A DNA stretch of 64,000 nt from Croceicoccus naphthovorans (GTDB taxonomy: Bacteria; Pseudomonadota; Alphaproteobacteria; Sphingomonadales; Sphingomonadaceae), in assembly GCF_001028705.1 (NCBI RefSeq), contig NZ_CP011772.1, positions 1 through 64,000 of the forward strand, given 5' to 3'. Under the pieces are notes generated by a model. The model saw only the letters and a list, made by a program, of their open reading frames with translations. It did no database searches and was not told the DNA's origin. The translations under genes were made by a program, and so were the position numbers. This document shows positions 2,533 to 22,506 of this stretch, piece after piece; positions within the stretch are counted from its first letter, which is position 1, and each line of letters starts with the position of its first letter.

Positions 2533-2671
2533 GGGGACGTTCTCCTTGAAGGATTGATTGCGACCGGACCCCTTGTCCGATCACCATTCTTCCATCCCCC
2601 TTCCCTCCCGGCCGTCAGGCCGAGACCTGCGGGCCATGCCCGCAGCACTTCTGAGGAGAGGCACGGAGAGA

Positions 2672-3006
2672 TCACCGGGAACCGCCCCGCCCTGCCCCCA
2701 GCAATCCGACAATCAGCGTGCTGATGGGCCGGGTCTGATCATGAGGGTTACGCAGCCGGTCGATCTCGAGGCGCGAAGCAAGACCATCCGGCACCTCGGC
2801 ATAGTCGCGGACGAGCGCTAGCAGCGCGGAAGCGCTCGGGATTTCCCGGAAGGTGGTGCCGCGCCACAGGCGCACATCTGGATCGGGCGCGCCGTCGCTT
2901 GCGGCGAACACGGTGACGAAGAAGGTATCGAGCCGGGGTCCCAACCCAGGGCGACCTCGAAGAGGTCGACATGGTTGGGAAGCGGTTTGAGCGAATAGCG
3001 CGACAT
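2672..3006 (-). pseudogene. Small plasmid protein of unknown function with a one-base frameshift
   Basis: Translation from ATG 3006 reads MSRYSLKPLPNHVDLFEVAL then GWDPG. At about 2938 the sensible reading jumps frame and continues LDTFFVTVFAASDGAPDPDV and onward to a stop at 2672. One extra G in the GACCCC-GG run would restore a single product of about 111 residues. I recognise the opening as a common small hypothetical protein of sphingomonad plasmids but know no function. The start lies 6 bp after the stop of the DUF3768 gene, so it was the next cistron. The break is either a real mutation or a homopolymer sequencing error. Confidence 0.6.
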
Positions 3007-3011
3007 CTGGC

Positions 3012-3425
3012 TCAGTAGTCGGTCGCAAGCATGACGGTGACCACCCGGTAGCTGGTCTGCTCATCCCACGGCGCCTCTGCGCCCCACTCAAATGTGCCGT
3101 CGTTCTCGTAGACATCGACTTTCCAGAAGATCTTGCGATCAAGGAATGTCACCACGCCGAAGTCCCTCTCGCCGTTGGGGTCGTTGCCCGGATCGATCGG
3201 GGTTTCGCGAACGAGGCGGAGCAATGCAGCCTGGTTCTGAAATTGGCGCACCTGCGCAATGGCCGCATCGTCCGCGTCGCCCGCAAGCAGGTCGACGAGA
3301 TTGCGGGTGAACACCATGCGGGAGTTCGCAAGCGTACCGGCACGCGCGGCATCGTTGAGCCGGGCGATCTCGCCGGCGCGGGACTGTTCGGCGGAAAGGC
3401 ATGATGCCTGGGCAGGCTGGGCCAT
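3012..3425 (-). CDS. DUF3768 family protein
   Basis: A 137-residue product starting MAQPAQASCLSAEQ. The ATG at 3425 is chosen because AAAAGGAG lies 8 nt upstream. The second half shows the DUF3768 signature: NDPNGERDFGVVTF, then the FWKVDVYENDG block, then the C-terminal TSYRVVTVMLATDY. DUF3768 proteins are small, soluble and of unknown function, and are frequent on alphaproteobacterial plasmids. The gene is part of the tightly packed minus-strand block and is followed closely by the frameshifted gene at 2672-3006. Confidence 0.85.
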   Translation of the reverse strand: MAQPAQASCLSAEQSRAGEIARLNDAARAGTLANSRMVFTRNLVDLLAGDADDAAIAQVRQFQNQAALLRLVRETPIDPGNDPNGERDFGVVTFLDRKIFWKVDVYENDGTFEWGAEAPWDEQTSYRVVTVMLATDY

Positions 3426-3495
3426 GGAAAAATGCTCCTTTTGCAATTGATCGCCCGGTCCGATCCCCCTCCCCTCCTTGCCGGCGCTTGCCGGG

Positions 3496-3732
3496 TCAGG
3501 CGGGAATGGGTTCGTCATCGTTGCTGGAGATGACGACGCGGGTGACGATGCGCGCGGGCGAAGCGCGGCTCGCCAGGACGACGCGGAATGGTTGCAGGGG
3601 ATTGCCGGTCTTCACCACGGCGGTGTCGGCGGCCATACGTTCAGCGACCTGGCTCGCGACACGGTTGGCATTTTCGATACTGCACAGCCGCGCGCGCTTG
3701 GGCGAGCGAGTGGATAAGGCAGGTTCGCTCAT
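3496..3732 (-). CDS. Small conserved-looking hypothetical protein
   Basis: A 78-residue basic protein (MSEPALSTRSPKRARLCSIE...). The ATG at 3732 overlaps the TGA of the upstream gene (ATGA, 3729-3732), which points to translational coupling. No membrane segment or catalytic motif is visible. The string ENANRVASQVAERMAADTAV looks helical and TGNPLQPFRVV beta-rich. The overlap is the main argument that this frame is used. Function is unknown. Confidence 0.6.
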   Translation of the reverse strand: MSEPALSTRSPKRARLCSIENANRVASQVAERMAADTAVVKTGNPLQPFRVVLASRASPARIVTRVVISSNDDEPIPA

Positions 3733-4332
3733 GACACGTGCGGAGCTGCTGGAGGCGGGACGATGGTCCAGGCACGGCTCATCAGGTTCGTGATCCGCAC
3801 GCCTACGCCGTCGGTCATGCGGCACAGCCGCGTCTTGTTGCCAGAGGCAACCACGCGGAACGTTCGTTCGCTGTGGCCATCGGTGAACGTCAGGGCTTCG
3901 GCAAGCACCAGCGTGTCGCCGGGCCGGGGCTTGCGGCGCGAGGTCAGCGCCAGTCGCTGGCGGCAATGTTCGCGCCAATGCGCGGCGTGTTCGTTCCTCG
4001 GCGAATCGAGCAGGTCAAGAATCGAAGCCGGGCAATCGTAGCGATACGGCCCATGGATTCTTCCATGTCCTTGTATGCGAAGATGTAGCCGTCACGCGCC
4101 TTGGGGTTCCAGCGGATGAGGCAGATCGCCGCGAAGACGAGTGAGGTGCCATCGGACTCATAGCTCTGACAGGCAGCGTACCACGCGCCAGAACGGACCG
4201 AGGACTTGAGCACGCGCAGGCCCGTGGTCCGCCCTTGTCCAGGTCAGGCGGGAATGTGAACTGGGCATCGAGATATGCCTTGGGCGTGGCATGCGGCGCC
4301 ATGCCTGATGCGGTCATCGAGAGCCAACCCAT
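3729..4332 (-). pseudogene. DUF6927-like plasmid protein broken by two frameshifts
   Basis: The opening MGWLSMTASGMAPHATPKAY followed by LDAQFTF is that of a roughly 190-residue protein I associate with DUF6927. The reading runs in one frame to about 4231, continues in a second frame (TTGLRVLKSSVRSGAWYAA ... DGYIFAYKDMEESMG), and from about 4050 in a third (PYRYDCPASILDLLDSP ... TNLMSRAWTIVPPP) to TGA at 3729-3731. Each switch is consistent with one missing base in a G or C run. Either the gene is decaying or the assembly has homopolymer errors here. The terminal ATGA overlap with the next gene is intact. Confidence 0.65.
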
Positions 4333-4341
4333 CGGGGCCTC

Positions 4342-4998
4342 CTATACGAGTTCGGTTTGTCGGGGTTCGAGTTCGAGGCGGGTCTCGCGCACCACGGTCG
4401 CGCGGAAGCGGACCGGAACGGCCAGCACCGCGATGTCGCAATAGTGATTGCGCTCGCCGATATAGTCCTGCCGCCCGTTGCAGCGGCGGAACATCACCTC
4501 GCGGCCCGCACCCATGCAGGAGAGCGCGACCTGGATGTAGATCGCATCGGCATGAAGCGTGATCTCGCCCGAGACGGCGACGCCGCCTGGATTGACACGC
4601 AGGTCATAGTCGTCGGCACCAAGACCCAGCTGCCGTGCCGCAATCCTGAGCGCCGAGCGGGCTTCGCGCTGGAACACGCGTTTGGCTTCCGGGTCGTAGC
4701 CCACGCCGCGTCGGGCGAGCGCCACCAGCGCGGGCTTCGACTTCAATTCGTCGATCCGCTCGATGCATTGGCGGCGCAGCGGCGCATCTTCGGCGAAGGT
4801 CGCATCTGGGGCGTGGCCGAGCGCAATGCGTCCGACATGGCGGGCAAGCAGGATGGTCGCCGGATCGCGTGCCAGGTCGATTCCGGCATTGCGCGCGTCC
4901 TGCATTGCATCGATCACTGCCTGGGTCGCGGTCGGGATCGTTGACAGCCCATCGGGCTGGAGCGCCCGGCGGTAGCGGAAGTCGAGATCGTAGTTCAT
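4342..4998 (-). CDS. Hypothetical protein, 218 aa
   Basis: The product starts MNYDLDFRYRRALQPDGLS. The ATG at 4998 is preferred over one at 5040 because GGGAG lies 9-13 nt upstream of it. The first half is helical and charged, with LARHVGRIALGHAPDATFAED. The second half looks beta-rich (YDLRVNPGGVAVSGEITLHAD, then IYIQVALSCMG). No catalytic motif or membrane span is recognised. It lies 9 bp upstream of the DUF6927-like gene in the same block. Similar proteins seem to accompany DUF736/DUF3768 genes on sphingomonad plasmids, but no function is known to me. Confidence 0.65.
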   Translation of the reverse strand: MNYDLDFRYRRALQPDGLSTIPTATQAVIDAMQDARNAGIDLARDPATILLARHVGRIALGHAPDATFAEDAPLRRQCIERIDELKSKPALVALARRGVGYDPEAKRVFQREARSALRIAARQLGLGADDYDLRVNPGGVAVSGEITLHADAIYIQVALSCMGAGREVMFRRCNGRQDYIGERNHYCDIAVLAVPVRFRATVVRETRLELEPRQTELV

Positions 4999-5103
4999 CG
5001 CATGGCTCCCTTGCGCCGGAAAGGCGCATGGGCTGCCCACCCCCTCCCCTTCCCGCTCGCCGTGCGAGCGCGGTTGAAGAGATTGGCGATGTGCTCTCAG
5101 CGA

Positions 5104-6003: not shown

Positions 6004-6085
6004 GGGTATACTCCCGTGTTGTTGGGGCGCAAGCCATCCTCGCCCGGCACCTTGGCCAGGCGGGGATAGCAAAGCATTCGGATAA

Positions 6086-8140
6086 TCAGGCGTCGACCGT
6101 TTCGCGGACCTCATCGGCGGCATCTGTGACGTCCGGTTCGGGCGCTTCGTTCGGAGATTCACCTTCGCCTTCGTCGGGCTGCGCCTCCCCTGCCCCGGTG
6201 TCACCCAGCACCCGGAACCGCATCGCCTCAGGCACCCAGGCCAGCGCTGCCTGCTTGACCTCGGGCGCGACGATGGTCTCACCGGCGAACAGCTTCTTGC
6301 AGGATGCGGATAGGTCGCCCTTCTTGGCGCCCATGAAGATTGCCGCCATGGTCGGTCCGCCCACTTCGGTGACGTGCGCGAGCAGTGTCTGCTTGCTCAC
6401 CCGGTCGAAGTAGTTGGCCGAGGTGGGCCGCCAGTGATTGGCGACGTTGATCTCCATCAGCGATGCCAGATGATCGTGGAGTTCGATCGGTTCGGGACCG
6501 GACTGGCCGGGTTTGCGCGCCACGCCCATGCTCGCTTCGAGCGTACGGGCAACGCACCAGGCCAGCCATGCGGCCTTGGCTTCGTCATCGAGCGCGCTGA
6601 ACGCGGTGAACCTCTCGACCGTGCGCTCATGTTCGGTCCAGGCGGTATCGAGCGTCTCACGCATGTCGGCCATCAGCGTGTGCGCCGGAGACTCCGGATA
6701 GCTGGCAAGGTAGAGCGAGGGCGATGGCGCGCGGATCGTGGTGCCGAGCGCCTGTGCGCCGTAGGTGAGCCCGGCATCGGCAATCGCGAAGATCATGTAA
6801 TCGAGCGCGATCGCCGGGTTGGCTGCGAGGTTGACCGAGAGGATGTCGCGGCGCTGCACGGCGAGCTCCTCGACCAGCTTCTGCGAAAGCGGTTTGGGCG
6901 CCGATCCGGCATCGCCGCCTCCGTCAGGCGCACTACCCTCGCCACTGGCGTCGCTGCCACGCGCCTTGCGCTTCTCGAGCGGCTTGTCGCTGTAGAGGCC
7001 GTGGGCAATGGCCGGCTCGCCGTTCTCGCGCACGATGACGAAGCAGCCGAGGTTAGCCTTCATCTCCTCGGGGATCACCGGGGGTTTGTCGTGAAGGGCG
7101 TCGTACGCTTCGGTCGCTGCTTCCCAGCGTGACTGGAAGTCTGCAGCCGCAGTCTCGTCGTCTTCATCAAGGCCGTCGCTTTCGGCTTCGAGGGCGGAGA
7201 TCGTCTCGAGTAGGCGGTCGGCCTCGGCCTGTTCCTTGTCGGTAAGCGGGGCGGGTTCGAGATGGACCTGGTGCAGGTCTTCGGTTGCCGCATAGGGCAC
7301 TCGGCTTTCAAGAACCGGGCGCACCCAGGCATAGCCCGAAGTCTCGGCGACCTCTGTTGCAAAAGCCTGGAGTTTCTCGCCGGCGATGCGCTGGGCGATT
7401 TCGGCGTCGATCCAGGTCTCGTTCGAGTCCTCGGTGAAGAGATCGCGCTCGATCCGGCCACCCGCAGCGAGGTATTCTGCTTCACCGGCGAGCCTTGCCA
7501 TCGGCGAGGACGAGCGCACAGCGCTGTGGGTGATCATGCGCCGGATCGAATCGGGCTGGTTGCCCTGCCAGGAATCGGCCAGTTCGTTCCACACCATCAT
7601 CTGGCGTTCGTGATTGGGCGTGGTCGCGTAGGCCTTGGCAACATCGAGCGTGATCTGGCCTTCCTCGAGTGCGGCGAAGATCGGATCGGCGAGATCAGCC
7701 AGGCGCAGGCGACCCTCGATGAACCGTCGCGTGCGGCCGAACCGCTTGGCGATCGCGTCGAGGTCGCTGCCCTCGTTGACGAAGTGCTTGTAAGCGCGGA
7801 TCTCGTCGGTCGGGGTCATGTCGAGGCGGATGACGTTCTCGATCAGCGAAAGTTCGGACTGCTCGGCGCTGTCGGTGTCGATGACCTTGCAAGGCACTTC
7901 GTGGGTCTTGGCCACCTTGCCCGCCTCAAGCAATGCATTGAGCGCGCGCAGCCGCCGGCCGCCGGCGGTGACGTCGAAGAACCCGCGCCTTTTGGCGGGC
8001 ACCACGATCAGGTTCTGCAGGAGGCCCTTGGCCTCGATATTGGCGGCAAGCTCCTCGATGAAGAGGTTGCTGTCGTTCTTGCGGACATTGGCCTCGGACA
8101 AGCGCAGCTTGCTGAGCGGGATCATCTGGATATCGTTCAC
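6086..8140 (-). CDS. Large ParB-N domain protein (ParB/Spo0J-like, non-partition)
   Basis: A product of about 684 residues. The N-terminal ParB domain (about 5-120) has FIEELAANIEAKGLLQNLIV, GGRRLRAL near residue 55 and ENVIRLDMTPTDE near 97. An HTH (AIAKRFGRTRRFIEGRLRL) follows at about 125-150. A long helical middle and an acidic C-terminal tail complete it. The GTG at 8140 is chosen because AGGAG lies 7 nt upstream; an ATG at 8155 in the same frame is the alternative. It is distinct from the true plasmid parB at 15880. ParB-N domains also bind or hydrolyse CTP and occur in large phage and plasmid 'polyvalent' proteins beside Sbno helicases and ArdC, as here. An oriV-like iteron lies 64 bp upstream. 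Confidence 0.85.
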   Translation of the reverse strand: MNDIQMIPLSKLRLSEANVRKNDSNLFIEELAANIEAKGLLQNLIVVPAKRRGFFDVTAGGRRLRALNALLEAGKVAKTHEVPCKVIDTDSAEQSELSLIENVIRLDMTPTDEIRAYKHFVNEGSDLDAIAKRFGRTRRFIEGRLRLADLADPIFAALEEGQITLDVAKAYATTPNHERQMMVWNELADSWQGNQPDSIRRMITHSAVRSSSPMARLAGEAEYLAAGGRIERDLFTEDSNETWIDAEIAQRIAGEKLQAFATEVAETSGYAWVRPVLESRVPYAATEDLHQVHLEPAPLTDKEQAEADRLLETISALEAESDGLDEDDETAAADFQSRWEAATEAYDALHDKPPVIPEEMKANLGCFVIVRENGEPAIAHGLYSDKPLEKRKARGSDASGEGSAPDGGGDAGSAPKPLSQKLVEELAVQRRDILSVNLAANPAIALDYMIFAIADAGLTYGAQALGTTIRAPSPSLYLASYPESPAHTLMADMRETLDTAWTEHERTVERFTAFSALDDEAKAAWLAWCVARTLEASMGVARKPGQSGPEPIELHDHLASLMEINVANHWRPTSANYFDRVSKQTLLAHVTEVGGPTMAAIFMGAKKGDLSASCKKLFAGETIVAPEVKQAALAWVPEAMRFRVLGDTGAGEAQPDEGEGESPNEAPEPDVTDAADEVRETVDA

Positions 8141-8208
8141 GGGAGGGCTCCTCATGGCCGGAATGGATCGAGCCGAACGGCTCAACCCCTCCAACCCCCC
8201 TCCCCTTT

Positions 8209-9381: not shown

Positions 9382-12300
9382 TTAGCCAACGACAGCCTCC
9401 AGCACCGCCTCCGCCTTCTCCATCGGCACGAACACCCGTGTCTTGTAGGCGATGATCTCGGTGAAGCAGCCCATGGCCTTGAGCCCTGCGATCCTTCCGG
9501 GTTCGACATCGGCAATCTCGATCCGCCGCGCGCCGTTGACCCGTGAGGTGCGGATGGTGAAATTCTTCGGGTGCGGCGCTTTCCATGTGCCGCCGCCAAG
9601 TATGGCCTGGACGATCTTGCCGGGATCGACCTGGGCCTTGCGAGAAACCCCAAGCCGCTCGAGCGTGGCATCGACGAACAGGTCGTGGACGTGGCGACCG
9701 AGCCATGAGGCGCCGGTCTGGTCGACAATGCGATTGACCGTTAGGTCTTCCTTGGGGAGCGCGCCCCAGATCGGCAGCAGCAGACCGGTTGCGAGATAGA
9801 CTGTCTCGGTGACCAGCTGGTTCTCGTCGGCGGCGTACTCTGCCTGCCAGCGCGCCTCGAAGTCGTCGCGGGCAATATCCTCCCACGCGGATTCGGCGAG
9901 CCGTTCGGCGAGGATATACTCGCTGCGCAAGGGGCGGACGAGTTCGAACCGGCGGATGTAGTTGCCTTCCTCGTCCATGTGCGAGGGCGCAGGAATGCAC
10001 AGCGCGACCTTGTCCGAGCGGGAGTTGTGCAGGAACCGCGGATTGTCTTGATGCGCCGCCATCGCCATGACGCGTTCGAGCGAGGTGAGCTTGCGGCGCT
10101 GGGTGAGCGAGAGTTCAAGCAGGTGCGAAGTCGCCCCGGTCACCGGATCGGTACGGATCACCGTGTCGGACAGGACTTCGCAGGTCTCCACTGCAATGGT
10201 CTCGACCCCGATGTCGAAGGTGCCAGCTTCGCGGGCGGTGGCGACCCGGGTTTCGACGAGCGTGAGGAACTCGTCGAAGATCGCATTCTGCACCGCGATC
10301 TTCATCGCGAGGATGCGGTTGAGCCAGCGCTGGATCGGCGGCAGGTTTTCGCTGAGCACACCGTCGCGGTCGGTCAGTTCGAGCCCGCTGATCGTCTCGA
10401 ACTCCTGCAAGCTGGTGCTTTTGAGCTTGCCGGTGGCAAGCAGGCAATACCAGTCGTGCAACGCGTGCTTGGCGTAGATGCTCTCAAGATTGTCGGAAGC
10501 ATCGAACATGCCCTGACCGCCGGTCTGGCGCTGACCGCGTGTCAGTGCGCCCAGCGCATCGAGGCGGCGAGCGATGGTGCTGGTGAACCGCGCCTCGCCC
10601 TTGCAGTCGGTGGTGACCGGGCGGAACAGTGGCGGGCAGGCCTGATGAGTGCGATGCGTGCGCCCGAGGCCCTGGATTGCCCGGTCGGCGCGCCACCCCG
10701 GTTCAAGCAGGAAGTGGACACGGCGCTGCTGGTTCTTGACGTCGAGACTGGCATGGTAACTGCGCCCGGTGCCGCCAGCGTCGGAGAATACGAGGATGCG
10801 CTTGGCTCCGGTCATGAACGCGCTGGTCTCGGCAAGGTTGGTGCGCGGCGAGCGGCTTTCGAGGCGCTGCTGACCCGAGCCATCGCGCACCAGGCGCTTG
10901 GACCGCCCCGTCACTTCGGCCACCGCCGTGACGCCATAGTGCTCAAGCAAGGCATCGAGCGCAGTCGGGATCGGCGGCATGGCGCAGATATATTCGAGCA
11001 GCTCGTCACGTTTTGCCTCGGCCTCGGGGTTGATAACGGGGTTGCCGGCGTCGTCATACATCGGGCGTGAGCGAACATCGCCGAGTTCGTCGACGTATTC
11101 CTCCATCTGGCGGGTTGGGAATGCGCGGCCAAGGTAGTCGACGACGTATTCCTTGCAGTCGGTTGTTATGTCGAGCGTCTCGCGCTCCGGTTCGAGCTCG
11201 TTCAGCCGCCGGTTGAGGATCGATTCCGCCGTGCTGACCAGCTGCACGACCACGCTTTCATCCTGTGCCAGATGCTCGTCTATCGCGGGATAGATCGATG
11301 GCAGCTTCATCGAAAGCAGCACCTGGCTGAAGAAGCGCTGCTTGGTGCCCTCGAACCGGCTGCGCGCCGCGGCCTTGGCACCGCTGTTCAAGGTGCGATC
11401 TTCAAGGCCATCGACAATCCCGGTCAGTTCGAGCGCGGCTTTGAGGTTCTGGTGGATGATGGTCCAGGCTTGCGAATAGGTGTCGTAGATCTCGATCTGC
11501 TCGGGTGTGAGTTCGTGGCGCAGGATGTCGTATTCGATGCCGGCAAAGCTCAGTGCCCGGGCGAGGTATAGCCCTGATGCCTTGAGATCGCGCGCCACCA
11601 GTTCCATCGCGGCAATGCCGCCGTCGCGGATCTCGCTGATGAACTGCTCGCGCGTAGCAAAGGCTGTGCCCGGCCCCCACAGTCCGAGCCGCACCGCATA
11701 GGCGAGATTGTTGACGTCCGAGGCCCCGGTCGCCGAAGCATAGAGCACGCGGGCGCGCGGCAGAGTGTTCTGCAGCAGCACCCCGGCGATGCCCTGGAGC
11801 GAGCCTTCCTTCTGGCCCAGCGCCCCTTCCCCACCGGCAACACCGCCCATTTCATGGGCCTCGTCGAAAACGATCACGCCCTCGAAGTCAGCGCCTGCCC
11901 AGCGCACGATCTGGTCGAGCCGCGTGTCTTCGACGCGCGATGATCGCAATGTGCCGTAGGGCACGAACAGGATGCCCTCGGGCGCGGTGATTTCCTCGCC
12001 GATCTTCCAGCGCGCAATGTCGAGAATGTCTGCGGGCAGCCCGCCGATCGCCGACCAGTCGCGCTGCGCGTCCTCGAGCAGCGGTGCATTCTTCGATATC
12101 CAGATATGGCGGCGATTGCCCCTGAGCCATTGGTCGAGGATGCAAGCCGCCGCTTGCCTCCCCTTCCCCGCCCCGGTGCCATCACCGAGAAAGAAGCCGG
12201 TGCGATAGAGCTGTCCGTCGGGATCTTCCTTCAGAGCAACCTCTCCGGCGGGATGGCTGAACCGACCCTGCAGATCGCGAGACCAAGCCTCGCCTGCATA

Positions 12301-13593: not shown

Positions 13594-13652
13594 GGAGCGG
13601 GTCCCCTCAAGGCAATGGGCCGGACTGGCCCATCCCCTCCGCCCCCCTCCCC

Positions 13653-14495
13653 TCACCGCTTCAGGAGATCGGCCCAGTCGTTCGCGCCGCGCGGAGGCCA
13701 ACGGGTCTCGATGGCAAGGCCAGACCGGGAGTAGGCAGCAAGGGCGCGGTTCGCCGCGCGATGCCCTTCCGCATCGTTGTCGGCGAGCAGGATCAGCCGT
13801 ACAACGGTTCGCGGAATGGTCAGCTGGTGAAACCGCTTGGCGCCCATGCTGGCCCAGGCCTTGATGCCGACAAGATCGGTGAAGGCTGCTGCGGTCTCGA
13901 ACCCTTCGCACAGGCCAAGAACGCTCTCAGGTGTGCCGTTGGTCCATGCAGCCCCGATGGCGCGGCCAAGGCAGAGTTTGGCAGTGCTGGCCCCGGTTCG
14001 TGGATCGAGGAATATCCGCTGGATCGCGGCAAGATTGCCATCGCGGCGCATCCCGACCAGCAGCGCCGGTTCGAATCGAGCCAGGGCTCCCTGCCCTCTC
14101 GGACACCGTGGATGGAAACGCAGGTCCTGGAGTACGCCGCCGATGCCACGAACCTGGCGGACATAGTATTCGGCCAGCGAACCCTCGATGGGACGACCCT
14201 CGCGCCAGATTTTGAGGAAGGCGTTTCGCGACCTTGCAGGCGCTCGCTCGATCTTGGCCGGATCGAAATGCGGTATGCGTGTGATTCGGCCGATGGCCCG
14301 CAACACGTCCGAGCGGTCGCAACCTGCATGGCAGGTAACGAGAATTGCGCGATCACCCTGCCGGATCGACAGCGAGGGCGTCCTGTCGGCATGGGCCGGG
14401 CAAAGACACATGGCGGTGTTCCCGGACCAGGTGCCGCCGAGTCGGCTAACCAGGGCTTTCAGCTCGGATGTGGGTCTGTTGCAAGCGAGGGTCAT
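13653..14495 (-). CDS. Toprim protein with CHC2-like zinc finger (DUF7146/primase-like)
   Basis: A 280-residue protein starting MTLACNRPTSELKAL. A zinc finger resembling DnaG CHC2 uses C30, C32, H35, C55 and C59. The Toprim fold is marked by LCEGFETAAAF near residue 195 (the Glu motif) and LLADNDAEGHR near 235 (the DxD motif). In plasmids and phages this arrangement is typical of Toprim primase-like or helicase-loader proteins; no helicase domain is present. The gene starts a minus-strand transcript running into the methyltransferase-Sno gene 59 bp downstream and is divergent from parA. An ATG at 14525 is an alternative start. Confidence 0.82.
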   Translation of the reverse strand: MTLACNRPTSELKALVSRLGGTWSGNTAMCLCPAHADRTPSLSIRQGDRAILVTCHAGCDRSDVLRAIGRITRIPHFDPAKIERAPARSRNAFLKIWREGRPIEGSLAEYYVRQVRGIGGVLQDLRFHPRCPRGQGALARFEPALLVGMRRDGNLAAIQRIFLDPRTGASTAKLCLGRAIGAAWTNGTPESVLGLCEGFETAAAFTDLVGIKAWASMGAKRFHQLTIPRTVVRLILLADNDAEGHRAANRALAAYSRSGLAIETRWPPRGANDWADLLKR

Positions 14496-14613
14496 GCAAT
14501 CGAAGCACGATCCCCCTCCCCTCACCCCGCTTCAGGATCGAATCCCGGCTGGACTGAATGAGATTATGGTTATAGGAGAAAGAAAACGTTCAAGTCTATT
14601 TGCTGGGATCAAA

Positions 14614-15807
14614 ATGCATTCAGAAGTCGAGCGCATAGCAGAAATGGCGCAAACTGGCGAACGCATGATCGAAAGACTGCGACGCCAAGCATTCCTGCCC
14701 GAATCGCGCAAGGAGCTTACCGTTCGATTCGGGATCGCAGAAGCCGCGAGCCTGCTTGGCTGTTCAACGAATCGTATCCGCATGGCTGAAGACGATGGGC
14801 GACTGCCTCCTCCCCCGCCAACAGAGAATGGACGGCGCCCCGGATACGGGATCAATGATCTGCTTAACATGCGCGAAGTTCTGGGCGCATCTCCGGCGCG
14901 CGCTCCGCTCGATAACCCGGCAATTATTGCTGTACAGAATTTCAAGGGCGGTGTCGGCAAATCCACTGTGACGACCCACCTTGCGCATTATTTCGCGGTC
15001 CAGGGATATCGCGTCCTCGTGGTTGATTGCGACAGCCAGGCGACGACAACGACCTTGTTCGGCTTCAATCCGCATTTCAATATCACGCGAGAGCAGACGC
15101 TCTATCCATACCTCTCAATCGATCCTACCCAGACCGACCTTCTCTATGCCGTGCAGAAGACGCCCTGGCCCAACGTTGATCTGATCCCGTCCAATCTCGA
15201 ACTCTTCGACGTTGAGTATGAGCTGGCCGCATCGGGTGCCGATGGTGGCAGTGTGCTAGCCTCTCGCTTCCGCAAGTTGAAACAGGGCTTGCAGGACCTT
15301 GCCAGGGATTACGATGTCGTGATCCTCGACCCGCCTCCGGCACTTGGAACTATTTCGCTCGCGGTAATGCAGGCGGCCAATTCACTGATCGTGCCGCTGG
15401 CAGCCACGACGCCAGATTTCTGCTCGACCGTGCAGTTCCTTTCGATGATGGATCAGGTGACCGGGCAACTGGCGGAAGCGGGAATCGTTGTCGATTACGA
15501 TTTCGTCCGGCTTCTGTGTTCGAAGTTCGACAGCAACGATCCGAGCCACGCGATGGTAAGGCAGATCATGGAGCAGACCTTCGGCCCTGCCCTGCTGCCC
15601 GTTCCAATACTCGAAAGCGCGGAAATCAGCCATGCCGCATTGCGCATGATGACGGTTTACGAACTGGAGCGTCCGATCGGCACGGCACGAACGCACAAGC
15701 GCTGCAAAGGCAATCTCGATGAAGCTCTCGCCCAGGTCGAAGTTCTCGTGCGTAAAGGCTGGGGTGTTGCCTCACCTGCCAGCGAGCAGGAGGTGATCAA
15801 TGCATAA
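14614..15807 (+). CDS. parA: ParA-type partition ATPase
   Basis: A 397-residue ParA (type Ia, as in RepA of repABC systems). An N-terminal HTH region has GIAEAASLLGCSTNRIRMAE at about 38-60, a deviant Walker A KGGVGKS at 111-117, VLVVDCDSQATTT, and the Walker B-like VVILDPPPALG. It drives segregation of the plasmid with ParB and represses its own operon in related systems. The ATG at 14614 gives the usual length; an in-frame ATG at 14563 is possible. ParB follows 72 bp downstream. Confidence 0.9.
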   Translation: MHSEVERIAEMAQTGERMIERLRRQAFLPESRKELTVRFGIAEAASLLGCSTNRIRMAEDDGRLPPPPPTENGRRPGYGINDLLNMREVLGASPARAPLDNPAIIAVQNFKGGVGKSTVTTHLAHYFAVQGYRVLVVDCDSQATTTTLFGFNPHFNITREQTLYPYLSIDPTQTDLLYAVQKTPWPNVDLIPSNLELFDVEYELAASGADGGSVLASRFRKLKQGLQDLARDYDVVILDPPPALGTISLAVMQAANSLIVPLAATTPDFCSTVQFLSMMDQVTGQLAEAGIVVDYDFVRLLCSKFDSNDPSHAMVRQIMEQTFGPALLPVPILESAEISHAALRMMTVYELERPIGTARTHKRCKGNLDEALAQVEVLVRKGWGVASPASEQEVINA

Positions 15808-15879
15808 GTCTATATCTGTTCCATGCCGCAATGTTCATGCTTTGTTCGTTGCAGTGGCACTCGGCGAAGGAGCGATCTG

Positions 15880-16959
15880 ATGGCGAAAAAGCAAAGCGAC
15901 TACCTCGCCAGTCTTCTGGCTGAGGACGAGGCGGAAGCGGAAGCGCCAAAGAGCGACACCCAGGATGCAGCGATCCCCCTTCCCTCTCGCGGTGAGCCGA
16001 CGCGCGCCAGTGCGCGTGCAGGCCTTTCGCTCCTTGGACGTGAGAATGCGCTGTCGCGGGTTGCAACCGGCGAAGTCCGGCAAGTCACACAACTGCTTTT
16101 GGATCCGGCGCGTGTGCGGGTCTGGGCTGGAAATGCGCGAATTCAAGCAAAGCTCACTGAGGACAATTGCCGCGATCTCATCGATTCGATCGTAGCAGAA
16201 GGTGGGCAGAAGGTTCCCGTGGTTGTTCGCCACATCAAGGACGATCCGGCCCACGACTATGAGCTGATCGCAGGAACCCGGCGCCACTTCGCCATCTCCT
16301 GGCTGCGGGCACATTCGTACCCGGACATGAGGTTGCTCGCGCAGGTTGCCGAACTCGACGATGAGGCAGCATTCCGCCTCGCCGATATCGAGAACAGGGC
16401 CCGCAAGGACATCTCGGACATCGAGAGGGCGCGGAACTACGCTGCAGCACTCGAATTGCATTATGGCGGCAAGGCCGTCCGCATGGCTGAGCGGCTCAAG
16501 CTCTCAAAAGGCTGGCTTTCGAAGATGTTGAAGGCAGCCACGATCTCTGACGATGTGCTCGTTGCATTTGCCAACCTGCACGAGCTGACGCTCAATCCTG
16601 CTTACAAGCTGGCCACCGCTCTTGACGATAGTGCGCGCGCGACCGCCATCCTCAAAGAAGCCAAAGCGATCGCTGGCGAAAACCAGGCTGCACTAGACAG
16701 CGGCACCCCTCCCCTCCCCGGCGCAGCAACCTTGCGTCGGCTCATGGCTGCAAATGCCGTGAAGGCTCCAGCACCGGTCGATTTGCGGATGGAGATTGCC
16801 GGTCCACACGGTAGGCCTGTCGTGGCCGTCAAGGCGGTTAACCGACAGGGGATCACCCTGCACCTGCCGATGGCAAGCGGTGCAAGCGACGATGCTGTCG
16901 CCGAGGCGGTTCTGAAGGTTCTGGAAGGCCTTCGAGAGAACGGGATCTCGGTGAAATAG
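15880..16959 (+). CDS. parB: ParB-type centromere-binding protein
   Basis: A 359-residue ParB. The start (MAKKQSDYLASLLAED) has AAGGAG upstream. The ParB-N CTP-binding fold includes LIAGTRRHFAISWL near residue 129 (equivalent of GERRxxA) and IENRARKDISDIERA. The HTH (MAERLKLSKGWLSKMLKAA) is at about 201. A helical linker and C-terminal dimerisation region follow. It should bind a nearby parS; palindromes at 16997-17018 and 17970-17989 are candidates. Its C-terminus is followed by repA after 61 bp, giving a parA-parB-repA order like repABC. Confidence 0.9.
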   Translation: MAKKQSDYLASLLAEDEAEAEAPKSDTQDAAIPLPSRGEPTRASARAGLSLLGRENALSRVATGEVRQVTQLLLDPARVRVWAGNARIQAKLTEDNCRDLIDSIVAEGGQKVPVVVRHIKDDPAHDYELIAGTRRHFAISWLRAHSYPDMRLLAQVAELDDEAAFRLADIENRARKDISDIERARNYAAALELHYGGKAVRMAERLKLSKGWLSKMLKAATISDDVLVAFANLHELTLNPAYKLATALDDSARATAILKEAKAIAGENQAALDSGTPPLPGAATLRRLMAANAVKAPAPVDLRMEIAGPHGRPVVAVKAVNRQGITLHLPMASGASDDAVAEAVLKVLEGLRENGISVK

Positions 16960-16996: not shown

Positions 16997-17018
16997 GAAG
17001 TTTCCTCGAGGAAACTTC
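16997..17018. promoter_or_regulatory. parS-like palindrome in the parB-repA gap
   Basis: A perfect 22-bp palindrome with arm GAAGTTTCCTC. It ends 2 nt before the repA GTG and contains repA's GAGGAAA Shine-Dalgarno. A copy differing at one of 20 positions lies inside repA (17970-17989). ParB binding (parS), RepA autoregulation, or both are plausible. Confidence 0.6.
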
Positions 17019-17020
17019 TC

Positions 17021-18283
17021 GTGAGTCGCGCCCGCAAGCAAGCTGTAGGCGAGCAGTTCGATTTGTTTCTGCCGTATATCGCCGATCTCAACTTCCGCGA
17101 TCAGCGGGAGATGATGGAGCGACCGTTCTTCAGCCTGGCAAAGTCGAAGCGCATCAAGCCAATTGACTATAACAGCCCGGATGGGAAGCTGTGGGTCCAT
17201 GTCAGCGCCAATCCTGACTATGGCATGGCCACGATTTGGGATGCGGACATCCTGATTTATTGCGCAAGCATGCTCGCCGACATGGCTAGGCGAGGGCAGA
17301 ACGACATTCCTCGCAAGCTCCATATCATGCCCTATGACTTGCTTCGGGCTATCGGGCGGCCAACGACTGGGCGAGCGTATGAGCTACTTGGCCAGGCCCT
17401 CGACAGGCTCGTATCGACGACAATCAAGACCAACATCCGCGCGGAGAATCGTCGCGAGGCAACGTTCAGCTGGCTCGATGGCTGGACGCAGCTGGTCGAC
17501 GAGCGCACTGAACGTTCCAAAGGCATGACGCTTGAGCTCTCAAACTGGTTCTATGAAGGCGTGCTCATGAAGGGCGGAGTGCTGGCAATCGACCGTGCCT
17601 ATTTCAGCATCAGTGGTGGGCGTGAGCGATGGCTTTACAAGGTGGCGCGCAAACATGCCGGCGGGGCAGGGGAGGGCGGCTTTGCCATCACCATGCCAGT
17701 ACTGTTCGAAAAGAGCGGTGCCGAAGGGGCCTACCGTCGGTTCAAGTTCGAGCTCCTGAAGCTTGCCGAGAAAAACGCGCTGCCAGGCTATGAATTGGTG
17801 GTCGAACAGTCAGCAAGAGGAGAACCACTCCTCCGGATGCTCCGTAACAACGCGAAAGGCGAAGGGTTGACGGTATCTGCCGAAGACATCGCCGACGGTC
17901 GATCCGCGTTCGAACAGCTCGCAGGCAATGCTAAAGCAGGGGAGGGCGCGACAACCGAACTGGTCGAGAAAGTTTCCTCAAGGAAACTTCCCGAGCCGGT
18001 GAAGCCTCCAAGAGATGAGGAAGAGGTTCTGGTCGACGCTCGCTCGTTGATCAAAAGCACCGTCACCGGGCTCTCCGACGCCGCCACACGTGGCTTCATG
18101 ACGGATGATACGATTGAGCTCCTCCGCCGCGAATGTCCGGGCTGGGACCTCTATAATCTTCATGCCGAGTTCGAAGCCTGGGTGAACGCTTCAGCCGAGC
18201 GAAGCCCGGTCAATTGGCAAAAAGCCTTCATAGGCTGGGTGAAGCGACATCACGAAAAACACCGGCACGAATTGCGCGGCTGA
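17021..18283 (+). CDS. repA: Replication initiator protein A (RPA family)
   Basis: A 420-residue initiator of the alphaproteobacterial RPA type: early DLNFRDQREMMERPFFSLAK, YGMATIWDADILIYCASML, a LHIMPYDLLRAIGRPTTGRA block, the TFSWLDGWTQLVDE core, then winged-helix-like KFELLKLAEKNALPGYELVV. The start is GTG at 17021, with GAGGAAA about 8 nt upstream inside the palindrome at 16997-17018. Such proteins bind iterons; five iterons lie 230 bp downstream of its stop. The C-terminal 100 residues after the internal palindrome are a linker plus the ECPGWDLYNLHAEFEAWV segment seen in this family. Confidence 0.9.
   Translation: MSRARKQAVGEQFDLFLPYIADLNFRDQREMMERPFFSLAKSKRIKPIDYNSPDGKLWVHVSANPDYGMATIWDADILIYCASMLADMARRGQNDIPRKLHIMPYDLLRAIGRPTTGRAYELLGQALDRLVSTTIKTNIRAENRREATFSWLDGWTQLVDERTERSKGMTLELSNWFYEGVLMKGGVLAIDRAYFSISGGRERWLYKVARKHAGGAGEGGFAITMPVLFEKSGAEGAYRRFKFELLKLAEKNALPGYELVVEQSARGEPLLRMLRNNAKGEGLTVSAEDIADGRSAFEQLAGNAKAGEGATTELVEKVSSRKLPEPVKPPRDEEEVLVDARSLIKSTVTGLSDAATRGFMTDDTIELLRRECPGWDLYNLHAEFEAWVNASAERSPVNWQKAFIGWVKRHHEKHRHELRG
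17970..17989. promoter_or_regulatory. Second parS-like palindrome inside repA
   Basis: Arms AAGTTTCCT and AGGAAACTT lie around a CA centre. The 20-mer matches 16998-17017 except for G to A in the centre. It lies within the repA coding sequence (EKVSSRKLP), 972 bp from the first copy. The conservation of a palindrome inside a gene suggests a bound site. Confidence 0.55.
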
Positions 18284-18804
18284 GGCCCTCGAGGCCGCCG
18301 AGCGGAGCCAACGTAGCAGTGCCGATTGCCCCGGCAAACCGGTCAAATTTCAGGTCAGCGCCAGTCCGCGTTCCCGAAGTGTCGTGTCGAGACAACCTGG
18401 CACCAAACCCGAAGTAGACCATTCAGCTCCCACGCGCCCAATTGAATCACTTTGTGACGACCTCCGGCAAAACTGATTCAAAAACTCGTGCAAGCCTGAG
18501 GCATTGCGTAGCCTTTCGACACTTCAGGAACACAAAGCAGTCTGTCAACGACACTCCGGGAACCGATAACCGACACATCAGGAACAGCACTCCCGACACA
18601 ACGGGAACGGATTGTCGATACAACAGGAACGGCTCGATGTGCCCGACTCGTGGATTTCCGGGCCAAACGCGCCAATTCTGGGCCATCTAACTTTCTAACA
18701 ATACCATTTAACCCCTCTAACCCATAGGAGAAGTTCAATTTCATTGAATTGATCAGGGGAAGGGCGGGATCGGCTAGGACGTAATCACGAAGCATATAAA
18801 CTGC
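18284..18804. other. Probable replication origin (oriV): non-coding iteron and AT-rich region
   Basis: 521 bp without a credible gene. It holds five direct repeats (18517-18630, listed separately), then an AT-rich stretch (about 18685-18745) rich in CTAAC and TTTAAC words and containing a short inverted repeat around CAATTTCATTGAATTG (18736-18751). Iterons beside an AT-rich stretch, just downstream of the initiator gene, are the standard iteron-origin layout. No clear DnaA box was found by eye. Confidence 0.7.
18517..18630 (+). repeat. Five 15-bp iterons, consensus CGAYACWHCRGGAAC
   Basis: Copies start at 18517, 18549, 18571, 18594 and 18616: CGACACTTCAGGAAC, CGACACTCCGGGAAC, CGACACATCAGGAAC, CGACACAACGGGAAC and CGATACAACAGGAAC. 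Start-to-start spacings are 32, 22, 23 and 22 bp, close to whole helical turns, so the sites face the same side of the DNA. They are presumed RepA-binding sites. Confidence 0.85.
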
Positions 18805-19968
18805 CTACCGCGTGCGCTCGAGCAGCCTGTCAATCTCATCCATTGCCGCATCGAACTCGGCAAGCAGCGGGGAGGGCAGGGCGCCCGACCGCTCGCTGCT
18901 CATCTGGATAGCTCTCTCATGTTCGCCAGTGGCTACCAGCAGGACCTTGCCCCTGACCGTCTCGACCCGGGCCATCCCCGCATCGACCAGCGCATCGCGA
19001 ACGGCATAGGTGCCTCGCCGTGTAATCCCGAATGCCACGCCCATCTGTTCGAGCCCGAGCGGAGCAAACCCCGCAAGTAGCATCCAGACCTGCGGAGCAC
19101 GCGCCGACGAACGCAAATGGCCAAGACTGTGGTGCATGCGCATCGCCTGCCTGCGCGCAGTTTCGGCCAGCTCGATCAGCCCCTGAACACTTGCTGCCAG
19201 CCTCTCGGCCATGACGATCCGCCGCGAGCAGGGCCCCAGCACCGGCCTGAGTGCTTCGGCGGTCACCGCACCGGGGCAGGGGAGGGGGACCCGCCAGGCG
19301 CCACAGGAGGCCAGCAGGCGGCCCTGGAGCGCATCGAGGGCCCACAGTGGCGTGCGAATGCCTGCGCGCTCGATCGCGACGTCACGGCCCAGCAGTGGGA
19401 GCACAGCGGCACCGCGTTCAATGGGCGCGAACAGCGCCGATTGCCGCAGGCGCCGGTTAAGCTGTTCGAGCGCCGCGAACGGCAAGGACGAGGCAGAGAC
19501 AAAGGGGAGGGGGCCTTCCCCGATCAGCCCGCGTGCAGCCTCAAGCGCCTTGGTGGGAAGCCCTACAGCGCTGTTATCGCTGCCATCGGCAGTGAACCTC
19601 GCGGCGGCCGATATAGTTCGGGCTGCCGCGCTCAGCAGCTCCCAGGGATGATGGCCCAGTTCGGTAAGCAGGGCGCGGACGATGGTGTGCGCGGGGCAGG
19701 GGGTGAGGGGGGTCTCCAGCGGGGCACGCTCGAGTCCAGCGAACCAGTGATCGAAGCGCATTTCGGCATCGGTGAACCCCGATTGCAGCAGCGCGGCGAT
19801 CAGCGTCCGGCGTAGCAAGTGCATGCAAAACAGAGTCTTTTCGTCATCGGAGAGGCCCGCGACCAGTCCGTCTAGCCGTCCCAGAACAAGCGCGCAGGAC
19901 GCCTCGGTGAGGGCTGCGTCCTCAGCCGGAGCGTCGTCATCAAGGGTAAATGCGGTGAGCGGCTCCAT
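18805..19968 (-). CDS. Hypothetical DNA-binding-like protein downstream of oriV
   Basis: A protein of about 387 residues, read from ATG 19968 (MEPLTAFTLDDDAPAEDAAL). An upstream GTG at 20043 would lie inside the dif-like site and is less likely. It is mostly helical, with an Ala/Leu-rich middle. The C-terminal region APLGLEQMGVAFGITRRGTY then AVRDALVDAGMARVETVRGK resembles a winged HTH, as in the DUF1612/HTH plasmid proteins, though I am not certain of the family. It is divergent from the recombinase at 20092 with the inverted repeat 20027-20054 between them. Possible roles are copy control or recombination accessory factor. It contains seven GGGNAGGG sites on the non-coding strand. Confidence 0.6.
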   Translation of the reverse strand: MEPLTAFTLDDDAPAEDAALTEASCALVLGRLDGLVAGLSDDEKTLFCMHLLRRTLIAALLQSGFTDAEMRFDHWFAGLERAPLETPLTPCPAHTIVRALLTELGHHPWELLSAAARTISAAARFTADGSDNSAVGLPTKALEAARGLIGEGPLPFVSASSLPFAALEQLNRRLRQSALFAPIERGAAVLPLLGRDVAIERAGIRTPLWALDALQGRLLASCGAWRVPLPCPGAVTAEALRPVLGPCSRRIVMAERLAASVQGLIELAETARRQAMRMHHSLGHLRSSARAPQVWMLLAGFAPLGLEQMGVAFGITRRGTYAVRDALVDAGMARVETVRGKVLLVATGEHERAIQMSSERSGALPSPLLAEFDAAMDEIDRLLERTR

Positions 19969-20026
19969 GCCCAATGTGTAGTGAAACGCAGAACACTGCA
20001 CAAGTGCCCGGACGTACTGCGAATGG

Positions 20027-20054: not shown

Positions 20055-20091
20055 TGCAAATCTATAAGATCGGGGGCAGAATCGCCTTCTG

Positions 20092-21300
20092 ATGGCCCCG
20101 GAAACCGCCCTCGATGACGATCGCCCTGACAGGGGTGAAGCGCTGTCGCTGTCGCGCGATCTGGCGCTAGTGGCGCATGGGCCGGGTGCCGGGCCCAGCC
20201 CGGAACTGCTGGCCGCCTATGTCCGTGCCGCCGCGCCCAACACGTTGCGGGCGTTTCGATCAGATGTGCTGGCGTTTGACGCATGGTGCCGGAGCAGGGG
20301 GGAGAAGTCTATACCGGCCTCGCCGCAGATCGTCGCCGACTGGCTCTCGACGAGGGCAAGCGGAGGAGCGGCACCTGCCTCGCTGTCGCGCTACAAGGCT
20401 TCGATCGCGCGGCTGCATCGGCTGTGCGGTTTGGCCGATCCGACCGGTGACGAACTGGTGCGGCTGACGCTCGCTGCCTATAGGCGTGAGAAGGGGGTCG
20501 CGCAAAAGCAGGCGCGCGCCTTGCGGTTCCGGGGCGCGGTGAAGGATCCATTGTCCGATACCCCGCGCGGGATCAACGTGCGCGCGGTGCTGGCTTCACT
20601 CGGCGACGGCCTCACCGATCTGCGCGACAAGGCACTGCTCAGCCTCGCCTACGATACCGGGCTGCGTGCCAGCGAGCTGGTCGCCGTGCAGGTGGAGGAC
20701 ATTGGCGAGGCGATCGACGCCGATGCGCGACTGCTGGCAATTCCGCGCTCGAAGGGCGACCAGGAAGGCGAGGGAGCCACCGCCTATCTCTCTCCGCGCA
20801 CCGTACGTGCGCTTGAGGCCTGGCTCAAAGCTGCCGTAATTGGCGAGGGGCCGGTATTCCGCCGCGTGGTCGTGCGGCGCTATGCCGCCCGCCAAGCGCG
20901 GAAGGCCCGCAATGGTAAGGAGCGGGGATGGAATGCGCGCTGGGTGCCCGAACGGTTTGCGGCAAAGGACGCAGAGCCGGTGCGGATCGAATCCGATGTA
21001 GGGGAGGGGGCCTTGCACCCCGGTTCGATCACGCCGCTGATTCGCTCGATGTTGCGCCGTGCGTTCGATGTGGGCGCGTTTGGAGATCTCGATGCGGCGA
21101 CGTTTGAGAAGCAGGTGCGCGAGATCAGTGCGCACTCGACGCGGGTCGGTGTCAACCAGGACTACTTTGCTGCCGGCGAAGACCTTGCCGGGATCATGGA
21201 TGCACTGCGATGGAAATCGCCAAGGATGCCGCTCCAGTACAACCGTAACCTCGCGGCTGAACAGGGCGCGGCAGGGAGGCTCTTGGGGAAACTACGTTAG
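20092..21300 (+). CDS. Tyrosine recombinase (Xer-like)
   Basis: A 402-residue protein. An N-terminal SAM-like core-binding domain (SPELLAAYVRAAAPNTLRAF, about 40-130) precedes the catalytic domain. Box I is TGLRASEL near residue 190, box II HSTR at about 347-350, a Trp in place of the second His (RWKS near 373), and the nucleophile Tyr383 in LQYNRNL. All four classes of catalytic residue are present, so it should be active. It lies between the origin and a decayed second recombinase, with an 11-6-11 inverted repeat on each side. A role in plasmid multimer resolution is more likely than phage-type integration, but this is inferred from context. Confidence 0.85.
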   Translation: MAPETALDDDRPDRGEALSLSRDLALVAHGPGAGPSPELLAAYVRAAAPNTLRAFRSDVLAFDAWCRSRGEKSIPASPQIVADWLSTRASGGAAPASLSRYKASIARLHRLCGLADPTGDELVRLTLAAYRREKGVAQKQARALRFRGAVKDPLSDTPRGINVRAVLASLGDGLTDLRDKALLSLAYDTGLRASELVAVQVEDIGEAIDADARLLAIPRSKGDQEGEGATAYLSPRTVRALEAWLKAAVIGEGPVFRRVVVRRYAARQARKARNGKERGWNARWVPERFAAKDAEPVRIESDVGEGALHPGSITPLIRSMLRRAFDVGAFGDLDAATFEKQVREISAHSTRVGVNQDYFAAGEDLAGIMDALRWKSPRMPLQYNRNLAAEQGAAGRLLGKLR

Positions 21301-21317
21301 CTTAGAGGCCAGTTTAA

Positions 21318-21345
21318 ACTATCGATAATGCACTTTATCGATAGT
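21318..21345. promoter_or_regulatory. dif-like site 2 (11-6-11 inverted repeat)
   Basis: Arm ACTATCGATAA (21318-21328), spacer TGCACT, then the perfect inverted arm TTATCGATAGT (21335-21345). It shares GATAA-N6-TTATC and a near-identical spacer with the site at 20027. It lies 18 bp after the intact recombinase and 33 bp before the decayed one. A hairpin terminator is the alternative, but there is no T-tract. Confidence 0.55.
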
Positions 21346-21378
21346 GACATTGCCAACTAGCGCGCCTAGCATATCCGC

Positions 21379-22506
21379 ATGGCTGCAATCTTACCCTCGG
21401 TCTCCTCCGCTGCAAACGCTTCGGCACGGGTGGGCGAGATTGTGGTCGTCCGCGGCGCCGGTGAGGCTCCACTGCCGCGAAGGCATCGCGGACGGGCTAC
21501 CGTCGCCAGCTAACCGACTTGCTCGCGGCACTCGTGGGTCAGGGAGCGACGATCGGTCGCCACGCCTTCCGCAGCAGTCTCGAGGCGCGCGCTCCGACGA
21601 GCGTCAACGCGCTCGCCAATGATCTCGCCAGTCTTGCCGTGGTGCACGGCCTGCTTGCGAGCCGAGCCCAACGCGGGGACCGATCGTGCGCGATGCGATG
21701 CGCGGTTTCCGGTGCCGGGTCGATGAGGCCCAGCGCTAGGCGGGACCGTTGCGGTTTGGCGCGGGCATCGGCGTCGGCCCCGCCAAAGGGTTCACCTTGG
21801 GCACGCTACTGCAGGCCTGTCCGGAAACGGTGCCGGGCCTGCGTGATGCGGCGCTGCTCAGCCTTGCCTATTACACGAGACTGCGGGTTTGCGAGCTGGA
21901 GCGGGTCGCATGCGAATCGAAAGCGATGGTTCGGCCGTGCTCACCGGACGGCGTTCGAAGACCGATCAGGAAGGGCAGGGGGCCTATGCCTGGCTTTCGC
22001 CCGACATCATGCGTCGGCTTGCGGCCTGGCGTGAAGCAAGCGGAATTCTTGACGGGCCGCTGTTTCGGCGTATCGGTCTGGTCCGCACCAAAGCGCGCGC
22101 CGCTGCGCCAACCGCAGCGCTGCCGCCTCCCCCGGAATTTCAGTGGCGGGTACCTGCCGGGGCGAAAGTGTCCACGGAATCGAAATCCGTCCTCGGCTCG
22201 ACGACTTATGTCATCGGCGAGGAGCCGCTGACGCCGGCGGCGGTGCGACTGATCACCAAGTGCACGGCCATGCGTGCGGTGGAGAATCATCTGGTCCATC
22301 TCTTCGGCAAGGAACTCGATGCCGCGCTCAGCACCCTTTCGCTTAGGGTCGGGCTCACGAAAGATCTGTTCGCGAGTGGTGAAGATGCGGGCCCGACCGC
22401 TCAAGCACAGCGGTAGACGCCGACGTCTACCGCGCTGCGTTACGGCCGCAAGCTTGCACCGGCTTCCACTGCGACCGCGCGGATGCTGCGGGAGGTGAGG
22501 GGGTAA
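21379..22506 (+). pseudogene. Decayed second tyrosine recombinase
   Basis: Fragments in several frames align in order with the intact recombinase upstream: LRDAALLSLAYYTRLRVCEL (box I region), RSKTDQEGQGAYAWLSPDIM, EEPLTPAAVRLITKCTAM, LSLRVGLTKDLFASGEDAG (box II region, with the HSTR motif lost), then TALRYGRKLAPASTATARML and a TAA at about 22506. Stops and frame changes interrupt it at about 21510, 21740 and 22416. It is not functional. A second recombinase with its own upstream dif-like site suggests that there was once a XerC/XerD-like pair or a tandem duplication. Confidence 0.65.

Follow-up and report, generated by a model that had tools for sequence, protein, structure and literature searches.

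Chromosome-like arrays of FtsK-orienting polar sequences (KOPS) have already been published for plasmids of other bacteria, including plasmids of the size considered here. We compare these systems with a plasmid of the sphingomonad Croceicoccus naphthovorans, whose contig NZ_CP011772.1 (C3; 125,076 bp) supplies, as its positions 1–64000, the 64-kb stretch under study (the window), in which the motif GGGNAGGG switches strand at the junction of the partition and replication genes (par–rep). The closest described cases are enterobacterial plasmids, which, according to Fournes et al. (2025, PMC11724359), share the GGGNAGGG polarity converging on a Xer site: KOPS cluster significantly in 41% of those larger than 75 kb, with the Xer site within the converging region in 64 of 78, and FtsK-dependent resolution of R27 (180.5 kb). 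The same work holds that plasmids larger than 250 kb have an FtsK-type site as a rule, detects no KOPS enrichment in replicons with a Xer site, and describes plasmid P1, whose KOPS run from origin to resolution site, as here, although P1 uses its own recombinase (Cre/loxP) and the present plasmid points to host-type Xer/dif. In Vibrio cholerae, according to the available parts of Val et al. (2008, PMC2533119) on dif2 and KOPS of chromosome II, one FtsK/XerCD set serves two replicons, GGGNAGGG is polar on both, and the central regions of their dif sites differ, like here; the partner there is a second chromosome, however, and here a modest plasmid. Large extrachromosomal replicons, in a panel that includes Paracoccus and Sinorhizobium, mostly invert their KOPS polarity at dif (Nat Commun 2026, PMC13342612, accessible parts).

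The window holds 31 matches to GGGNAGGG, against 9.39 ± 3.11 expected from 100 dinucleotide shuffles, none of which reached 31. All 16 sites between 2598 and 16719 lie on the minus strand and all 12 between 17664 and 21980 on the plus strand (Table 1). The original prediction on this DNA had correctly described the left run (2.6–16.7 kb) as free of plus sites but had counted 12 minus sites there; its right run (12 plus, no minus, 17.66–22.0 kb) was reproduced on recounting, as were three strays beyond the core (32449, plus; 45845, minus; 56737, plus). The switch falls where it had been placed, within 16719–17664, an interval containing a palindrome (16998–17017), which is a candidate parS-like centromere site, and the start of repA (17021). 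Polarity is also, as proposed, independent of gene direction, because the ori-to-dif copies on the complete circle divide into 18 on the template strand, 14 on the coding strand and 13 in intergenic DNA, according to our own gene calls.

The genome (3.86 Mb) is assembled in three contigs, namely the chromosome (C1), C2 and C3. Positions 105346–125076 of C3 duplicate its positions 1–19775 at 99.64% identity, with 2 mismatches and 70 gap bases; this is an unresolved circular overlap, and the replicon is a circle of ~105,345 bp. Because of the overlap, the par–rep core is present twice in the contig and was counted once, the sites at 107–125 kb being the same DNA as the first run. Similarly, C2 1–18989 equals C2 175667–194680 (99.74%, no mismatch), giving a second plasmid, a circle of ~175,666 bp. 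The overlap copies of C2 and of C3 differ almost solely by gaps, so reading frames in those stretches may contain indel errors. An assembly artefact was rejected as the cause of the polarity: the core is duplicated, yet C2, the chromosome sample and the relatives described below agree.

Counting over the full replicon uncovered a second polarity switch, at dif. The C3 circle carries 48 GGGNAGGG sites (12.4 expected under an order-3 Markov model), those of the right arm being mainly plus up to 83,081 and minus from 86,579, with 3 of 48 against. The optimal two-switch fit accommodates 45 of the 48, with switches at 16712–17664 (par–rep) and 83081–86579, and the latter gap contains a dif site at 85951. 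On C2, 42 of 46 sites are consistent with such a fit and dif again lies inside the switch gap; permutation gives p = 0.0002 for each plasmid, the minimum possible with 5,000 permutations. A dif site spans 28 bp, with one 11-bp arm on each side of a 6-bp centre. The best dif-like site of C3, TGATAA-CAAAGA-TTATGTTAAAT at 85951–85973, is identical to the chromosomal dif over the full XerD arm and the inner 6 bases of the XerC arm. It was recovered by searching for the XerD arm; a proteobacterial dif consensus, allowing up to 3 mismatches, had given no hit. Exact TTATGTTAAAT occurs genome-wide at four contig places (C1:1,728,600; C2:8,994 and 184,685; C3:85,963), twice on C2 because the contig ends overlap, and thus once per replicon.

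The original prediction had instead put a dif-like site and a Xer-like recombinase on the right arm of the window, and neither placement survives. There is no exact XerD-arm site in the 64 kb, the C3 site lying outside it, and the open reading frame (ORF) at 20092–21300 is only a weak, partial tyrosine recombinase, scoring 45.2 bits against the XerD model over model positions 11–154 of 290 (cut-off 329.6), which is short of a full-length XerD match. The two best XerC/D-like genes are chromosomal (269.6 and 218.3 bits), both below the same cut-off. The host genome has one match to the FtsK gamma domain, which matches the solved FtsK-gamma chains 2j5p and 2ve8 and, by our own residue placement on the alignment, keeps N1296 and E1303 of E. 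coli FtsK, two of the three KOPS-reading residues (roles as given in the available parts of PMC2533119).

Several minor observations concern the dif sites. The dif centres of C1, C2 and C3 differ from one another; avoidance of identical centres within a genome was not significant over 20 genomes (2 identical among 32 pairs; shuffled mean 2.39, P = 0.57). Sites in G252, G254, G266 and G276 have the CAAAGA centre of the C3 site as well, a few of them carrying one mismatch in an arm. The bases past the XerD arm are alike (TATCAATG or ATCAATG) at C3:85951, pCADAB1:38521 and position 18092 of a Q. citrea plasmid, and unlike those of the chromosomal dif. A PIN-domain ORF (C3 86403–86825) lies ~0.4 kb from the C3 site, and the dif of pNL1 (140139) is flanked by a tyrosine recombinase gene on one side and a VapC-type toxin–antitoxin pair on the other. 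Over its last 21 bases (ATAACAAAGATTATGTTAAAT), the C3 site is identical to the Xer site of R27 as corrected in PMC11724359, by our reading of that paper.

The host chromosome uses the same octamer with the same polarity. A sample of 89 20-kb stretches, covering 1.78 Mb of the 3.54 Mb, was binned at 200 kb: most GGGNAGGG sites are on the plus strand between 0.2 and 1.8 Mb and on the minus strand between 1.8 and 3.2 Mb, by a small margin in some bins (6/4 at 0.4 Mb, 4/5 at 2.8 Mb). The best two-switch fit is consistent with 239 of 280 sites and leaves a 4.5-kb terminus gap (1725718–1730213) that contains the chromosomal dif at 1728600. We then ranked all octamers with at least 20 copies, defining plasmid arms by repA and dif; for the chromosome this used 69 stretches (1.38 Mb), with those below 0.2 Mb, those at or above 3.0 Mb and the dif stretch omitted because the origin position was unclear, a choice made after seeing the bins. 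GGGCAGGG ranked 1st of 17,865 in the chromosome sample (138/15), 1st of 18,376 in six plasmids with dif inside the KOPS gap (111/13), 1st of 12,135 in C2 and C3 alone (38/3), and 1st of 16,735 in the other six dif-bearing replicons (105/15). The six-plasmid set was chosen after the gap fit; repeating the ranking with all 8 replicons bearing a dif-like site kept the top two ranks, with GGGCAGGG 1st of 20,401 (143/18). GGGGAGGG was 2nd in every plasmid set ranked, and GGGAAGGG ranked 9th in the six plasmids, 10th in all 8, 46th in C2 and C3, and 13th in the other six.

Relatives share the switch at par–rep, a comparison that the original prediction had called for. From 215 loci recovered by a tblastn search with RepA over genome contigs, the best 80 were taken and 62 non-redundant ones kept (one per group at least 90% identical over 1.5 kb). 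Across these, 902 sites diverge from repA and 63 oppose, with a diverging majority in 62 of 62; allowing one free switch per locus fits 930 of 965 sites, with a median bracket of 816 bp. In 46 loci the bracket includes part of the interval 0 to +300 relative to the start of the repA match; in 12 it begins further right (+757 to +1512), and in 4 it lies upstream. Another set of 20 loci, on plasmids partly shared with the 62, gave 279/23. Among complete replicons, 15 were compared (13 chosen PLSDB plasmids plus C2 and C3) and 14 scored, W10 having only 2 sites; W08, a linear record, was handled as a circle. Polarity reaches significance (p < 0.05) in nine of the 14, and in 12 (all but W09 and W11) the origin gap inferred from KOPS is no more than 0.4 kb from the repA start. 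Dif-like sites, at a threshold score of at least 14 of 17, were present in 8 replicons, and in 6 they fall inside the KOPS terminus gap: C3, C2, and plasmids of Q. citrea (80 kb) and S. sanguinis (98 kb), together with pNL1 (184 kb) and pCADAB1 (138 kb). The last two have a different Rep–Par arrangement, with parA divergent from repA, and the switch is still at that junction.

Taken together, the replicon, the chromosome, the relatives and the shuffle tests support the chromosome-like architecture put forward in the original prediction, and we consider it very probable that the motifs are KOPS orienting the host FtsK toward the plasmid dif. They would then be polar loading and orienting sites for this septal DNA translocase, diverging from the par–rep region and converging on dif at 85.95 kb. 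At division, FtsK catching plasmid DNA at the septum, for example as a dimer, would be turned toward dif; there, XerC/XerD, which the chromosome encodes, would be activated by FtsK-gamma and convert dimers into monomers. FtsK binding, the direction of translocation and dimer resolution are predictions from the sequence; the polar signposts suggest that the host division motor may handle a ~105 kb plasmid like a small chromosome.

A number of results weigh against this reading. Five of the 14 replicons lack significant polarity (W04 0.072, W06 0.074, W08 0.12, W09 0.36, W11 0.64). W06 (21.7 kb, NZ_CP155761.1) has a dif-like site with an exact XerD arm at 978, but its KOPS gap does not include that site (14 with, 6 against), and pLA5 has a weak dif-like site ~4.7 kb outside its gap (38/4). 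W03 and W05 are significantly polar without a dif-like site at threshold, which shows that polarity does not depend on Xer dif alone. Residue R1300 of E. coli FtsK appears as K in the host protein, by the same residue placement. The skew of a control octamer and the heavy plasmid use of GGGGAGGG, both quantified below, belong to the same side of the balance. As for the plasmids without dif, the idea that they converge on a recombinase of their own was rejected: W03 alone fits, with a tyrosine recombinase at 48.1–49.1 kb within its 35.6–53.4 kb convergence zone, and no dedicated resolution recombinase is annotated close to the KOPS gaps in pLA5, W05 or W04, the pLA5 gap having a Tn3-family transposase nearby.

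Were the polarity a product of leading-strand composition, a replication-linked G bias would render any G-rich octamer polar, and the reversed control octamer GGGANGGG is indeed skewed (26/3 on C3; 163/35 in the six plasmids), partly because it overlaps GGGGAGGGG. The pooled RepA loci likewise have a GC skew of about −0.03 to −0.05 on the left and +0.02 to +0.04 on the right beyond 3 kb. We nevertheless regard this explanation as highly improbable, since GC skew on the C3 ori-to-dif arms is near zero (+0.004 and −0.014), GGGCAGGG leads the octamer ranking both for the chromosome sample and for two disjoint plasmid sets, and of two composition-matched octamers without GGGNAGGG overlap, GCGGAGGG is not polar (19/14) and GAGGNGGG reaches merely 89/32. 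The motif excess also survives a codon control in which synonymous codons were permuted within genes (500 shuffles; on C3, 79 genes from a simple codon-usage caller): C3 has 45 sites with and 3 against the polarity, compared with shuffled means of 22.7 and 7.9 and a maximum of 30 with it, and the core has 28/0 compared with 10.3/1.3. The bias thus exceeds GC skew as well as dinucleotide and synonymous codon shuffles. The same control bears on shared descent, under which the sites would merely be inherited within conserved parA, parB and repA codons. Several site positions do recur, such as +600 to +700 of repA, where 45 plus sites cluster in the 62 loci, but shuffles that keep the protein and the codon counts of each gene leave far fewer sites: in the parAB region of these loci (140 plus-strand ORFs), 212 template-strand sites stand against 38.8 expected (coding strand, 4 against 5.4), and in repA, 101 coding-strand sites against 22.6 (template strand, 55 against 20.5). 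The excess on both strands of repA probably reflects ORFs whose start was called upstream, together with loci that switch deeper in repA or beyond it. Moreover, the sites are on the template strand within parAB but on the coding strand within repA, and the pNL1-type plasmids keep the switch with another Rep and gene order, which makes inheritance the least probable of the explanations weighed here.

Plasmids and chromosome differ in density and motif spectrum. In the chromosome sample, KOPS density climbs toward dif (22.5 per 100 kb within 200 kb, 8–13.5 per 100 kb past 800 kb). Each arm of the six plasmids has 5–12 sites within 10 kb of the origin, falling to 0.6–4.1 per 10 kb in mid-arm; at the 62 RepA loci there are 2.0 sites per kb immediately upstream of repA, compared with 0.2–0.5 per kb at 7–10 kb, the opposite of the chromosomal trend. 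The last 10 kb before dif contain 11 sites on the left arm of C3 and 7 on that of pCADAB1, which argues against a pure origin peak. For this peak there are two candidate causes: the backbone genes may be the longest resident on the plasmid, or origin-proximal loading may itself be selected. The share of GGGGAGGG is 30 of 94 sites on C2 and C3 versus 20 of 280 in the chromosome sample (p = 1.5e-8), and its leading-strand count against an order-3 model is 86 versus 8.4 in the six plasmids and 13 versus 8.6 in the chromosome, a use that is unexpected if one FtsK is the sole reader. Overlapping pairs 5 bp apart number 97 among 984 sites at the 62 loci, 22 among 388 on ten plasmids, and 3 among 280 in the chromosome sample. 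The origin peak, the share of GGGGAGGG and the overlapping pairs, together with the polar plasmids without dif, would suit a plasmid-specific, origin-peaking signal that resembles KOPS and has another reader, such as replication priming sites, Chi-like recombination sites or a plasmid-encoded translocase. Against such a reader, both variants of the motif flip at dif in the six plasmids, with 17/3 (N=G) and 33/2 (N=C) in the last 15 kb before it, and the same octamer family is polar on the chromosome; we judge it quite improbable. An FtsK-based variant is somewhat easier to entertain, if still unlikely: sphingomonad plasmids, some of them lacking dif, may keep a divergent KOPS array that is centred on the origin and under selection, with sites that are strong, often overlap and are rich in GGGGAGGG. 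The chief role of this array would be loading FtsK next to the partition complex and driving the plasmid's origin region clear of the septum as it closes. If true, FtsK would be a routine segregation motor for plasmids of ~50–180 kb, beyond dimer resolution.

Relative to the described systems, the size of C3 alone is not new, because the sections of PMC11724359 available to us cover plasmids above 75 kb. The differences from that work are sphingomonad plasmids with other Rep/Par, dif on plasmids of 80–184 kb, an enriched par–rep core, and a density peak at the origin. The replicons of PMC13342612 are large ones; "sphingo" has no occurrence in its main text, and no origin-proximal KOPS peak was met in its available parts. 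We found no report of KOPS polarity on sphingomonad plasmids in the open-licence PMC literature, judged by titles and the starts of abstracts, with a sphingo-directed search that was weak. What looks new, accordingly, is the presence of the system on sphingomonad plasmids, the density peak at the plasmid origin and the heavy plasmid use of GGGGAGGG. The KOPS reading would extend the chromosome-style order of FtsK, KOPS and dif to mid-size plasmids of a large environmental group, and would place a segregation signal, in excess at synonymous sites, within rep and par genes. The polarity switch could also serve as a sequence-only locator for the origin (to within that median bracket of 816 bp at the 62 loci) and the terminus of such plasmids. 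The same layout is present on pNL1, a well-known catabolic plasmid, and the idea can therefore be tested directly.

Table 1. Features of the window, in window coordinates. Sites given as KOPS are matches to GGGNAGGG for which this role is predicted.
Feature	Position	Strand	Remark
KOPS GGGAAGGG	2598..2605	-	left arm, ori-to-dif
KOPS GGGCAGGG	2690..2697	-	
KOPS GGGGAGGG	3467..3474	-	
Two overlapping KOPS	5042..5054	-	5 bp apart
KOPS GGGCAGGG	6188..6195	-	
KOPS GGGGAGGG	8198..8205	-	
KOPS GGGAAGGG	11824..11831	-	
KOPS GGGAAGGG	12161..12168	-	
KOPS GGGGAGGG	13645..13652	-	
KOPS GGGCAGGG	14089..14096	-	
parA	14188..15807	+	ParA-type ATPase, AAA_31
KOPS GGGGAGGG	14514..14521	-	parA template strand
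KOPS GGGCAGGG	15585..15592	-	parA template strand
parB	15823..16959	+	SopB-type helix-turn-helix, ParB_N
KOPS GGGAAGGG	15977..15984	-	parB template strand
Two overlapping KOPS GGGGAGGG	16707..16719	-	parB template strand; last before switch
Palindrome AAGTTTCCTCGAGGAAACTT	16998..17017		at polarity switch, just before repA
repA	17021..18283	+	RPA replication initiator, PF10134
Two overlapping KOPS	17664..17676	+	in repA; first past switch
KOPS GGGGAGGG	17939..17946	+	
Palindrome, second copy	17970..17991		20–22 bp palindrome, within repA
KOPS GGGAAGGG	18757..18764	+	
Two overlapping KOPS	18869..18881	+	template strand of ORF 18805–20043
Two overlapping KOPS	19274..19286	+	
KOPS GGGGAGGG	19504..19511	+	
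KOPS GGGCAGGG	19694..19701	+	
KOPS GGGGAGGG	21001..21008	+	
KOPS GGGCAGGG	21973..21980	+	
Isolated KOPS GGGTAGGG	32449..32456	+	right arm, fits ori-to-dif
Isolated GGGCAGGG	45845..45852	-	right arm, opposes polarity
Isolated KOPS GGGCAGGG	56737..56744	+	right arm, fits polarity

Elsewhere in the genome, three adjacent tyrosine recombinases occur at each of C1:1511279–1513934, C1:2923855–2926510 and C2:147121–149770, with identical scores at the two C1 places; we take these triplets to be possible recombinase-in-trio elements. The chromosome also carries three RepA-like genes (~45% identical) at C1:2140063, C1:3168647 and C1:3490979, which are perhaps remnants of integrated plasmids.

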